Shown here in pieces: positions 990-33,545 of a stretch of DNA of 34,349 nt. The notes beneath the pieces are model-generated. The model saw nothing but the letters and a program-made list of their open reading frames with translations. It ran no database searches and was not told the origin of the DNA. Both the position numbers and the translations under genes were made by a program. The first letter of the stretch is position 1, and each line of letters begins with the position of its first letter. Origin of the DNA: Bacteroidaceae bacterium (GTDB lineage: Bacteria; Bacteroidota; Bacteroidia; Bacteroidales; Bacteroidaceae); assembly GCA_017647225.1 (NCBI GenBank), contig JAGCLA010000044.1, positions 1 to 34,349 of the forward strand. Reading direction: 5' to 3'.

Positions 990-1719
990 ATCTATCTCTT
1001 TTGGTACAAATAACCTTGTCGCTAAATTCTATATTGAGTTTGTTGTATTTATTCCATCCTATATTGTTCATTCCGTTCTGGTAGAATGTGTATAGCTTGT
1101 TGAATTTCTTTTCTATGTTGTCGGCCTCTCCAAATTCTATTATGTGGTTGCCGACACGTGGTATCAGTATTATCTTCCCGTTCTTGTCGAAATATATCTG
1201 TTCAATCTGTGAACTCCAGAACTTGTCCCTGTTTATCTCTTCTGCCATTGCGGTGATATCCTTTGCCATGCTCTTGTCAACATGTCCGCTTACAACGGGA
1301 AGGTATAGTGCCTTTTGTATTCCTGTTATTATGTTGCCTTCGTTGTCGATATGATAAACGGAATTCTCTTCATCATGGACCTTTACTATCGGTATGCGAC
1401 AATCAACGTTTACAACGACATACCCTTTTGTGCTTTTATATACCTGACACTCTTTTATGGCCGATATGTTGTTCATGTATGTTTCAATATCTCCACAAAC
1501 GATATTGTCGAGCATCTTGCCTATAGGGTCGAGTCCTTCGTTCTTCAGGATATCGATAATCTCATCGCGGTTGATGATATTCATGTCGTTGTCGTCCACG
1601 TTTACAAGCACGCCCCTGCAAACCTCTGTCTTTTTTGACGAGGGTATTGCAATTATGGCGAACAAGGCATATCCGGCAAAAATCGCTATAATCAGATATT
1701 TGAAAATTTGTTTAAGCAT
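976..1719 (-). CDS. ftsQ: Cell division protein FtsQ/DivIB
   Basis: FtsQ is a bitopic membrane protein that links cytoplasmic and periplasmic divisome parts through FtsB and FtsL. The 247-residue product has a short cytoplasmic N-terminus, one membrane segment at about residues 5-26, and a periplasmic domain. Residues of about 40-110 fit the POTRA position, and a beta-rich domain follows. Sequence similarity in FtsQ is low, so the call rests on topology, size and position between murC and ftsA. Its ATG overlaps the murC stop by one base (TAATG), and its 3' end overlaps ftsA by 14 bases. The C-terminus is basic (CTKRDRYGKK). Confidence 0.9.
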   Translation of the reverse strand: MLKQIFKYLIIAIFAGYALFAIIAIPSSKKTEVCRGVLVNVDDNDMNIINRDEIIDILKNEGLDPIGKMLDNIVCGDIETYMNNISAIKECQVYKSTKGYVVVNVDCRIPIVKVHDEENSVYHIDNEGNIITGIQKALYLPVVSGHVDKSMAKDITAMAEEINRDKFWSSQIEQIYFDKNGKIILIPRVGNHIIEFGEADNIEKKFNKLYTFYQNGMNNIGWNKYNKLNIEFSDKVICTKRDRYGKK

Positions 1720-32600: not shown

Positions 32601-32694
32601 AGTGCTTGGTGGTTTGCTCTCTTCGACTCTGCTGAACATATTTATTATTCCGATAGTATATCGTTGGCTGGCTTGTAGAAAAGTAAGAGGGTGA
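29611..32694 (+). CDS. HME-type RND metal efflux pump (CusA/CzcA family)
   Basis: This 1027-residue inner-membrane proton-driven pump has the RND layout: one N-terminal helix (12-29), a large periplasmic loop, six helices in the middle, a second periplasmic loop and a C-terminal helix bundle. Family motifs are VDVFPDLTMPTV (porter start) and GSLVDDAIIDVENVYKRL in helix 4, with acidic residues D402, D403, D407 and E409 in the proton-relay position. That motif places it in the HME group with CusA and CzcA. I could not identify the CusA methionine triad from the sequence, so the metal is left open. No TolC/CusC gene is in the window, so the channel must be encoded elsewhere. Confidence 0.92.
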   Translation: MLNKIIKFSLNNRLLVLLAVVLVTVGGIYSAKKIEVDVFPDLTMPTVVILTDASNMAPEEVERLVTFPIETAVNGATNVRRVRSSSSQGFSFVWVEFDWGMDIYRARQVISEKMSLLSGQLPTGITPMLAPQSSVMGEIMFIGMQADSTSMMELRTLAEWIIKPAILATGGVSNVTIIGGDYKQYQVLADPVRMEMYGVTMSELESAAESMSVNIGAGVIRDFGNEYNLRGMGRSNDVAELGSTVVKSDGGTVVRVADVADVVIAPAVKQGYASQNGTPSVILSISKQPGINTLSVTQNIERNIESIAKSLPADVVLDTKIFRQADYIQASVNNVGSSLVEGAVCVILVLFLFLTSIRSTVISLLAIPLSLLGTVIVLYLLGMDINTMTLGGMCIAIGSLVDDAIIDVENVYKRLRENHALPKEERKSTLNIVFEASSEIRASIIHATLIIMVTFTPLFFLSGLEGRMLKPLGIAYLIALVMSLVVAMTVTPLLCKMMLSSDKYLTKNEKKNWVDKWLLDKYSTALQWVLAHAKLIVGAVVSLFVVCLFLFSGMGRSFLPEFNEKALTISAVSRPGVSLEESNKLGAAIEKELLQIPEVESTARRTGRGELDEHSQTSNGAEIDVNFTLSGRSKAEFLTEVRARLATIPGVVTSVGQPLEHRIDHMVSGTQADLAIKVFGPDLSTLFRKGTEIKEALKAFPEVVDVNVEQQVETPQLQIRADREKLAYYGITMSEFNSFIESSFPGKRVGSVYENERSFDLIIRLNKDYTESVDGVKRALIDTPNGKVALDDVASIVSVGGPGSISRENVQRKVVVSANIASGDVAGVVERVAEHLEKTLSLDEGYRLEYGGQFESAESASRILWLTTALAILVVFVLLYSEFKSASLSAVVLLNLPLALIGGILATYFTSAVMSIPAIIGLITLFGIATRNGILLVSRYQHLRADGMPLDKAVVAGSVDRLTPILMTAFTSALALVPMIMNGSASGNEIQSPMAVVVLGGLLSSTLLNIFIIPIVYRWLACRKVRG

Positions 32695-32710
32695 GTTTAG
32701 AGTTTATTGT

Positions 32711-32753
32711 CCACCTATTAAGGGGATAGCAATGCCTTAAGCATTGCAGGTGG
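32711..32753 (+). terminator. Two-part hairpin just after the RND pump gene
   Basis: An inner stem GCAATGC/GCATTGC (32729-32735 with 32741-32747, loop CTTAA) sits directly on an outer stem CCACCT/AGGTGG (32711-32716 with 32748-32753), with a 12-base bulge on the 5' side. It starts 16 bases after the pump stop. The tail on the plus strand is TAAAAAA rather than a T-run, so it may be an RNA 3'-end stabiliser or weak terminator, or may act on the other strand, where it is preceded by T's. Confidence 0.4.
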
Positions 32754-32807
32754 TAAAAAATGATGAACGTTAATCGAAGTTCTTAACCTTTAGACTTTTT
32801 CGTTTAT

Positions 32808-32815
32808 TATTTTTG
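32808..32815 (+). promoter_or_regulatory. Promoter-like -7 box inside the left arm
   Basis: TATTTTTG matches TAnnTTTG and would start a transcript near 32821, running into the element. No -33 element is visible and the box is not kept in the right arm, so this is weak. Confidence 0.25.
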
Positions 32816-32829
32816 TAGTCTTTCTCTCT

Positions 32830-32854
32830 TTACTTTTCATTGTGTGAAAAGTAA
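32830..32854. repeat. Arm hairpin, left copy
   Basis: TTACTTTTCA (32830-32839) pairs perfectly with TGAAAAGTAA (32845-32854) around the loop TTGTG. The mirrored copy at 33386-33410 has the same geometry, with compensating changes at three base pairs. Confidence 0.7.
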
Positions 32855-32898
32855 CAAAAGCACCCGGCACGCGTAAAAAATAGTCGCTCTGTTCTTCT

Positions 32899-32932
32899 GT
32901 TCGTGCCACCAATGGTGAGCACTCAGCCGAAC
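32899..32932. repeat. Interrupted hairpin inside the element
   Basis: GTTCG (32899-32903) and CGAAC (32928-32932) enclose CACC (32907-32910) and GGTG (32914-32917) around AAT. The stem is interrupted by small internal loops. Confidence 0.4.
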
Positions 32933-32957
32933 TTCGCTTGCCATTCAAAGCTTTCTC

Positions 32958-33056
32958 ATGTTTTTGGGGTGCTCCGAAACTCGCGTAGTGTGGCTATATA
33001 AGAAAAATTATACCCACACTACGCTCAAACATTCTCACACAATGGCCCAAAAACAT
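32958..33056. repeat. Two-tier inverted repeat inside the element
   Basis: The outer arms ATGTTTTTGGG (32958-32968) and CCCAAAAACAT (33046-33056) are perfectly complementary over 11 bp. Within them GCGTAGTGTGG (32983-32993) and CCACACTACGC (33014-33024) form a second perfect 11-bp stem, with an AT-rich 20-base loop that can extend the stem by a further TATA pairing. Confidence 0.65.
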
Positions 33057-33158
33057 TTGGCTTTTCACTCTATTTTTATCGGTGCCGTATTATTAACAAT
33101 ACTCATGCTATGATAACGTACTATGCTTTCCGCTTACTAAAGTAATTCCCTGAAAAAA

Positions 33159-33376
33159 CCGGCACTGTAAGTGAGAGAGTGAGTGTTAGTTCCAATAGAG
33201 GAATAGAATGGGGATTGTCTGAGCGTGTGTGCCATGCGATGCTGTTATTGCGTGAAGCGAGTTGCCCCATTCCCTCTATTGGAACGTCAAGACACGAACG
33301 GCGAGTTTGCGACGGCCGAGCGATGTGCTTGCACTCACGAGCAAAAGGAGCAAACGAATTAAGCGCCCTGTGCCGG
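33159..33376. repeat. Nested inverted repeats inside the element
   Basis: Three concentric pairs are present: CCGGCAC (33159-33165) with GTGCCGG (33370-33376); GTGAGTG (33179-33185) with CACTCAC (33332-33338); and GTTCCAATAGAGG plus AATGGGG (33189-33213) with CCCCATT plus CCTCTATTGGAAC (33265-33285). The innermost pair matches over 20 bp with a 4-base length difference between the arms. The loop at 33214-33264 shows no gene. Confidence 0.6.
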
Positions 33377-33384
33377 GCGTTTTT
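33363..33384 (+). terminator. Intrinsic-terminator-like hairpin in the right arm
   Basis: CGCCC (33364-33368) pairs with GGGCG (33375-33379) around TGTGCC and is followed by TTTTT (33380-33384). No annotated gene ends here, so it may end a transcript from within the element. Its right strand shares bases 33375-33376 with the long-range pair CCGGCAC/GTGCCGG, so the two folds exclude each other. Confidence 0.5.
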
Positions 33385-33385
33385 G

Positions 33386-33410
33386 TAACTTTTTGTGCGT
33401 CAAAAAGTTA
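33386..33410. repeat. Arm hairpin, right copy
   Basis: TAACTTTTTG (33386-33395) pairs perfectly with CAAAAAGTTA (33401-33410) around TGCGT. It mirrors the left copy at 32830-32854. Confidence 0.7.
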
Positions 33411-33475
33411 GTAAAGAAAGATTAAAAACAGGATAAACAGCCAAAGTGTAAAGGTTAAAAACTGCAGTAGAATAA

Positions 33476-33545
33476 CGATTAGCGTGGAACGTGGAACGTT
33501 AATCGTTAAACGTTCCTCGTTAAACGTTCCACGTTCCTCGTTAAA
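33476..33545. repeat. Tandem array of ten 7-bp CGNNNNN units
   Basis: Ten contiguous heptamers are read on the plus strand: cgattag, cgtggaa (twice), cgttaat, cgttaaa, cgttcct, cgttaaa, cgttcca, cgttcct, cgttaaa. CG is invariant and the last five bases vary among a few variants, giving a higher-order repeat of 14 bases (cgttcct-cgttaaa). The last unit contains the stop codon (TTA on plus) of the phosphopantetheinyl transferase gene. There are no spacers, so it is not a CRISPR. Confidence 0.85.

Follow-up and report, generated by a model that had tools for sequence, protein, structure and literature searches.

A tail-to-tail pair of structure-conserved repeat units in a Bacteroidaceae genome, probably the body of MITE-like elements

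Two repeat units between convergent genes

The window analysed here, a stretch of 34,349 nucleotides from a Bacteroidaceae bacterium (contig JAGCLA010000044.1), carries towards its right end an RND pump gene with its stop at 32694, followed by 846 bases without a plausible gene and then by acpT on the opposite strand, which reads as phosphopantetheinyl transferase-like (both names were taken from the translations). In the gap between these convergent genes an earlier note had described an element with long inverted arms, an interior packed with hairpins and no real coding sequence. That description holds in these respects: the arms lie where they had been placed and align over 94 bp at 73% identity (E 8e-12), they are recovered when the region is compared with itself by blastn (84-176 against 769-676), and their local alignment score of 45.5 exceeds the maximum of 31.0 among 2000 first-order Markov shuffles. 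Inverted repeats are found inside both halves, and the longest ATG/GTG/TTG frame within 32766-33475 is 69 aa.

The similarity is not limited to terminal arms, as had been supposed. Each half is a unit of about 345 nt that matches the family profile over most of its length, and a single element with short arms is ruled out, because each half matches as a full unit. An alignment of both halves with two other copies, the solo L031 and L034, shows the unit. The stretch is a tail-to-tail pair in which the repeat unit, ~345 bp long, is present in two full copies, arranged as follows; the covariance model scores of the two copies are not independent, since both were in its training set.

32766..33111, forward strand: unit 1, head 32766, tail 33111 (covariance model 244.8 bits, model positions 1-345 on the complementary strand; profile match 32778-33094)
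32778..32870, forward strand: left arm, which is the head part of unit 1 (73% identical to the right arm in reverse complement)
32865..33087, forward strand: long-range helix P1 of unit 1, CGGCAC (32865-32870) with GTGCCG (33082-33087), read from the sequence; helix 1 of the consensus fold
32983..33024, forward strand: inner hairpin of unit 1, GCGTAGTGTGGCTATA / TATACCCACACTACGC, from the inverted-repeat scan
33112..33132, no strand: spacer separating the two tails, the gap between the two covariance model matches
33133..33475, reverse strand: unit 2, inverted, tail 33133, head 33475 (covariance model 255.6 bits, 1-345; profile match 33465-33139)
33159..33376, reverse strand: long-range helix P1 of unit 2, CCGGCAC (33159-33165) with GTGCCGG (33370-33376), read from the sequence; helix 1 of the consensus fold
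33189..33285, reverse strand: inner stem of unit 2, GTTCCAATAGAGG / CCTCTATTGGAAC, from the inverted-repeat scan
33370..33463, reverse strand: right arm, the head part of unit 2, from the alignment to the left arm
33473..33545, no strand: flanking 7-bp-periodic array (TTAACGA / GAACGTT type), which adjoins the unit 2 head and is a repeat family of its own

Relative to unit 2, unit 1 is short of about 10 bases near its head. The right arm had been drawn as far as 33485; the sequence to the right of about 33473 belongs to the separate 7-bp-periodic repeat that follows the element. Degenerate arrays of this kind (TTAACGA, GAACGTT and AACTGAG types) occur at many places in the same genome, some of them abutting unit heads (window 33473-33545; also L038, L039, L040, L041, L043, L044, L045 and L046), and PMC4679880 reports TAACTGA heptamer arrays in Beggiatoaceae, Cyanobacteria and five Bacteroidetes. 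On the other side, between the pump stop and unit 1, lies a small palindrome-like stretch (CCACCTATTAAGG...CCTTAAGCATTGCAGGTGG, 32711-32753).

Dispersal, pairing and ends of the unit family

The earlier note had named a lack of other copies as evidence against an element; many were found. In the genome of the window (a 2.13 Mb draft in 56 contigs), BLASTN with 32695-33545 returned many partial matches, and a covariance model search gave nine matches, several at contig ends: four are full length at 245-256 bits and two are pieces of one copy. DNA matches to the unit (E<=0.001) are present in 27 of 44 genus genomes, this one included. A covariance search of 151 family genomes, in which ten candidates were scored per genome under strict filters so that weak relatives elsewhere may be missed, matched eight of the nine genus genomes (G027 weak, 29.4 bits). 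Among the 142 family genomes outside the genus, six gave single matches of at most 30.5 bits, which we take as chance hits; all strong matches fall within the genus. As far as sampled, the unit family thus appears confined to one genus. A pattern scan of named genomes yielded 62 stretches, 50 in Bacteroidaceae/Bacteroidales MAGs and 12 others; 49 of the 50 match the profile (L166 lies outside the scanned set), and none of the 12, which include Bacteroidales MAG U_127143 and are attributed to other taxa or chance, does so. Judged by their titles, 37 of the 50 stretches come from ruminant gut sites, the remaining 13 (SIG125, SIG128, S39M_St_69) having no named host.

Copies at separate places can be closely similar. 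Two copies at different loci of the window's genome are 95.8% identical over 215 bp; in different MAGs, L120 and L130 are 97.6% identical over 414 bp with differing outer flanks, and L149 and L159 are 99.1% identical over 329 bp. Host genes recur beside the units in at most three loci, and other clusters of open reading frames overlap the unit itself; an RNA-guided or retron-like reading, raised by the unit size, was dropped because no neighbouring gene recurs. One copy (L093) searched for a phage or plasmid origin gave no DNA match, and six IMG/VR pattern matches fail the profile. Many copies end at contig edges, and the family may account for assembly breaks in these MAGs.

Pairing is a frequent state of the unit and has a preferred polarity. 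After removal of one doubly counted copy there are 114 units with a tail, 20 of which reach the locus end; of the 94 visible tails that remain, 42 have an opposite-strand partner within 300 bp, two have a same-strand neighbour and 50 have none (42, 2 and 51 before the removal). The corresponding figures for heads are 8 opposite, 1 same-strand and 98 without a neighbour. A looser threshold lists 29 pairs, with 48 tails paired and 51 solo. These counts take in both members of each pair and are descriptions rather than independent trials, because the loci were fetched for holding units (some via the window pair) and the copies are related. Whole pairs can be aligned as a block comprising both arms and the spacer, as at two places of one contig (L126/L143, 81.6% over 768 bp). 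Crude motif typing labels the arms differently in 10 of the 29 pairs; the two window arms also carry different labels. At L104 (genome G003), two facing head fragments (profile 1-106) lie 14 bp apart, at 1020-1125 (+) and 1237-1139 (-), and resemble an internally deleted pair that kept only its outer ends.

How are the units bounded? When near-identical copies are aligned with their flanks, some turn out to be enclosed in longer elements that have GGCTCAGTAGAAA-type sequences, inverted relative to each other, at their ends, and in sister species units, single or paired, sit within short elements that end in GGCTCA-type terminal inverted repeats (TIRs). A scan for GG.TC-type TIRs was positive for 11 of 104 unit intervals; among random control intervals it was positive for 34 of 1036. 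Many loci end at contig breaks, one copy is counted twice among the 104 and the pairing of L139 is doubtful. Perfect 8-bp target site duplications (TSDs) surround the unit elements at L162, L093 and L092, the last a whole pair of 885 bp; a perfect 8-bp TSD also surrounds a 150-bp element at L087, a short derivative without a unit match. A further TIR pattern, type C, occurs in 28 of 44 genus genomes and in none when read backwards, and 20 of 30 loci fetched by it hold a unit, always on the inner side, a few of these being copies already counted. The earlier note offered two readings, one of a non-autonomous mobile element and one of two old interspersed repeats, and it is supported in both: the stretch is a pair of dispersed repeats, which in sister species lie within TIR elements, some with 8-bp TSDs. 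Other dispersed-looking repeats (GTCATTCTGGAGCGAAGAGTAACGG.. / GTCATCCCGACAGAGCG..) adjoin units in the flanks of L057, L087, L177, L078 and L128.

An ISL3-family transposase (PF01610) is found in 19 of the 44 genus genomes, in 15 of them over the cut-off, and elements with both ends, 1313-1429 bp long, at six of 19 loci. Three kinds of end were distinguished:

L255, L259: ISL3 ends of type A, GGCTCACC..
L256-L258: ISL3 ends of type B, GGCTCAACG..
L252: ISL3 ends, GGTTCATCC..

Three of the six elements have 8-bp duplications (L252, L255 and L259, the last with an interrupted frame). The first 14 letters of the type A ends are common to the TIRs of L092 and L093, and of type B only the upstream end was found beside units (L161, L141, L176). 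No ISL3 element with both ends holds a unit (profile at E<=0.01, 19 loci), and the unit body does not look like a deletion derivative of the ISL3 insertion sequence. For type C no autonomous insertion sequence or transposase was found; IS1595 transposase, considered as a partner, was met in none of eight genomes. No PF01610 match was found in the draft of G002, a genome with TIR-bounded pairs. As a separate observation, where one long transposase might be expected the genus ISL3 elements carry a first frame of about 120-133 aa that overlaps a second of about 322-330 aa (L255 972-1367 and 1327-2316, L254, L267, L256-L258), and the overlap of 41 or 14 nt hints at programmed frameshifting.

The window copy differs from its bounded relatives in that sharp transposon ends are not confirmed there: the end scan at the locus found no recognisable ISL3-type TIR and no TSD. 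Its genome has no type-C TIR and no PF01610 match, and its TIR-like sites number 20 against 12 for the reversed pattern, none near a unit. A CGCTAAWCG stretch stands before five of the nine heads seen in this genome, and 7-bp arrays often lie farther out. The window pair may therefore be an old copy that lost its ends, or may belong to a lineage moving by ends that are not recognised; since ISL3-type ends cannot be recognised, its mobilisation is itself inferred.

A branched fold kept by compensatory change

For the analysis of structure, 38 of the 67 full-length copies were chosen at less than 88% likeness. Alignment A1 comprises 35 of these with window unit 1 and alignment A2 comprises 32 with the same unit (33 rows); three divergent rows are absent from both and three more from A2, an exclusion that favours a clean fold result. 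Base-pair probabilities averaged over the 33 rows converge on one multi-branched structure. Changes on both sides are observed at 72 of its 88 pairs (A2, 33 copies), and double-changed cells number 633 against a shuffled mean of 221, a value reached in none of 500 shuffles. Paired cells amount to 82.6% in A2 (63.2 shuffled) and the covariation score to 0.506 (0.185 shuffled), while further pair types, 189 against 177, are matched by 8 of 500 shuffles. Sliding the partner by 1-3 columns reduces the double-changed cells to 120-192; the structure is favoured over the slid versions in this comparison because it was derived from the same sequences, and the double changes go far beyond that bias. 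Helix 4 (67.5% of cells paired) and helix 6 (55.3%) are weak. Conserved unpaired blocks are present, the long-range helix spanning more than 200 nt is also double-changed, and A-runs and T-runs flank the closing helix. When seven copies were folded individually, the strand complementary to unit 1 was lower in energy in six. In the unit body structure is better conserved than sequence, and we know of few small bacterial mobile elements with covariation as strong over so long a fold.

Is this fold one of RNA or of DNA? G.U pairs are tolerated in an RNA fold, whereas A.C pairs are not. At unit positions flanked by Watson-Crick pairs we counted 1323 Watson-Crick, 31 G.T, 19 A.C and 99 other combinations, against 167, 15, 0 and 1 in the stems of 29 tRNAs from the same loci, a control in which the acceptor-stem register was fitted by best Watson-Crick count. 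The ratio of G.T to A.C differs between units and tRNA (Fisher p 0.003, on modest numbers), the share of G.T is about 2% of flanked positions in the units and about 8% in tRNA, and within the units G.T is not significantly above A.C (binomial p 0.12); covarying stems here do not show the tolerance of G.U without A.C that is expected of a structured RNA gene. Flanked mismatches were used because the count over whole column pairs supported on both strands (96 G.T, 73 A.C) is diluted by misalignment. Mismatch types that are nearly strand-symmetric, unlike those of tRNA, are modest evidence against a single-strand RNA and for a cause at the DNA level, be it a selected DNA fold or template switching.

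Compared with Rfam 15, the window stretch has no match at gathering score. Four hits stay below the threshold (17.9-28.7 bits, E 0.0047-0.21); all of them fall between 33436 and 33595, mostly on the 7-bp array. On five further loci none fell on the units at E<=0.5. An Rfam match to abiF RNA (60.9 bits) lies at L093 393-429 (genome G002), about 500 bp from a unit.

Competing readings and the preferred explanation

Two readings would deny the pair the character of an element. The first sees a local region, regulatory or a terminator, that is tied to this pair of convergent genes. It would fit the position between pump and acpT and the A-runs and T-runs beside the closing helix, and is nevertheless highly improbable: copies abound elsewhere, no gene family stands beside the units in more than three loci, and a terminator scan of the region returned no terminator-like site. 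At the acpT loci of 29 other genomes (flanks of up to 1.5 kb, some cut by contig ends) the pump gene was not seen, and only one of them (L187) has part of a unit beside acpT; the tie to the pump gene that the earlier note had set against a mobile element is contradicted by the dispersed copies. That two unrelated solo insertions landed tail-to-tail in the window by chance, so that pairs are not elements, is a better but still improbable account. It can point to the 50 of 94 tails without a partner and to the differently labelled arms of the window pair; it is opposed by the preponderance of opposite over same-strand orientation (42 to 2), by the recurrence of whole pairs as alignable blocks such as L126/L143, and by the whole pair at L092 that lies between TIRs with an 8-bp TSD.

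The other two concern the origin of the fold. Read from the strand complementary to unit 1, the unit could be a structured non-coding RNA gene that transposable elements took up and multiplied, much as Alu arose from 7SL RNA, with the fold selected in the RNA. Overwhelming covariation together with conserved unpaired blocks, and the lower energy of that strand in six of seven copies, would suit such a gene; the mismatch counts, the scarcity of G.T and the lack of Rfam families on the units speak against it, as does the fact that no fixed single-copy ancestor was met, and we judge it rather unlikely. The compensatory changes might instead stem mainly from intrastrand template switching, a correction of quasi-palindromes in a selfish repeat free of structural selection. 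Few wobble intermediates and near strand symmetry are what this process would leave, and in the 33 copies columns 60-180 show all four Watson-Crick types without any other pair. Short-loop hairpins, however, are where template switching works best, and the double changes extend to the helix that spans more than 200 nt; the conserved unpaired blocks also speak against this reading. We hold this reading possible, though on the unlikely side.

The explanation that we prefer, and consider probable as a whole, is that the window holds a tail-to-tail pair of a genus-specific, dispersed, non-coding unit of about 345 bp, which would be the body of MITE-like transposable elements. An ISL3-family DDE transposase encoded by a separate insertion sequence would most likely act in trans on GGCTCA-type ends and produce the 8-bp duplications. 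The body would be kept as a multi-branched palindrome, with two branched arms closed by a long-range helix and one more hairpin after it, and its fold would matter, or arise, at the level of DNA, as an extruded cruciform or in single-stranded DNA. We infer three parts of this explanation: the action of the ISL3 transposase in trans, the movement of the window copy by the same means before its ends were lost, and the role of the fold. A bolder and rather doubtful extension would make the ~345-nt body a structural module of DNA, a branched cruciform or single-strand fold that is selected as such and that a protein recognises (for example in replication, priming or transposition). What mobile elements carry and spread would then be neither a gene nor an RNA but a structural site in DNA, and the inverted pair would be the form in which this site works, with two arms.

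Scarce wobble pairs make a single RNA the less likely carrier of the fold, and should the fold be a DNA structure, the many natural variants of the family could be used to test why long palindromes persist in bacterial genomes. The family also exemplifies an unrelated body placed between ISL3-type ends. New are the long branched palindrome, which compensatory changes preserve, its occurrence as an inverted pair and its restriction to a single genus within the genomes sampled; no description of the unit family was found in the open-licence literature.

Among known systems, BIME/REP sequences are extragenic palindromes that likewise occur as inverted pairs, whereas the unit is much longer and multi-branched. 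BrickBuilt (MITE239, MITEPgRS) of Porphyromonas gingivalis, as described in PMC4596501, contains tandem repeats of 23 nt, and its TIRs (GAGACC...) are similar to those of IS5-family elements; like the unit family it is gene-free and intergenic, with predicted stem loops and TIRs akin to those of resident insertion sequences, and it is set apart, by this description, from elements ending in GGCTCA.... ISL3-family insertion sequences (PF01610) have GGCTCA-type ends and 8-bp TSDs in common with the unit elements of the genus; the unit elements, in contrast, lack a transposase, the unit is absent from the ISL3 elements seen, and type C has no known partner. Prokaryotic MITEs, as reviewed in PMC10969869, are short, non-coding, multi-copy, intergenic and stem-loop forming and lack a transposase, as does the unit family, and their TIRs with target duplications are also found around some unit copies in relatives. 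The unit family is short, multi-copy and without coding capacity, and differs from them in a body that is a ~345-nt multi-branched fold, with 72 of 88 pairs double-changed and often in an inverted pair. The window copy has no TIRs, and its formal membership among MITEs is not established, because two defining features are missing there. By its apparent behaviour in relatives the family is best filed with MITEs, as a MITE-like non-autonomous family, because units bounded by TIRs and TSDs occur in sister species and unit-free ISL3 elements with matching ends occur in the genus.
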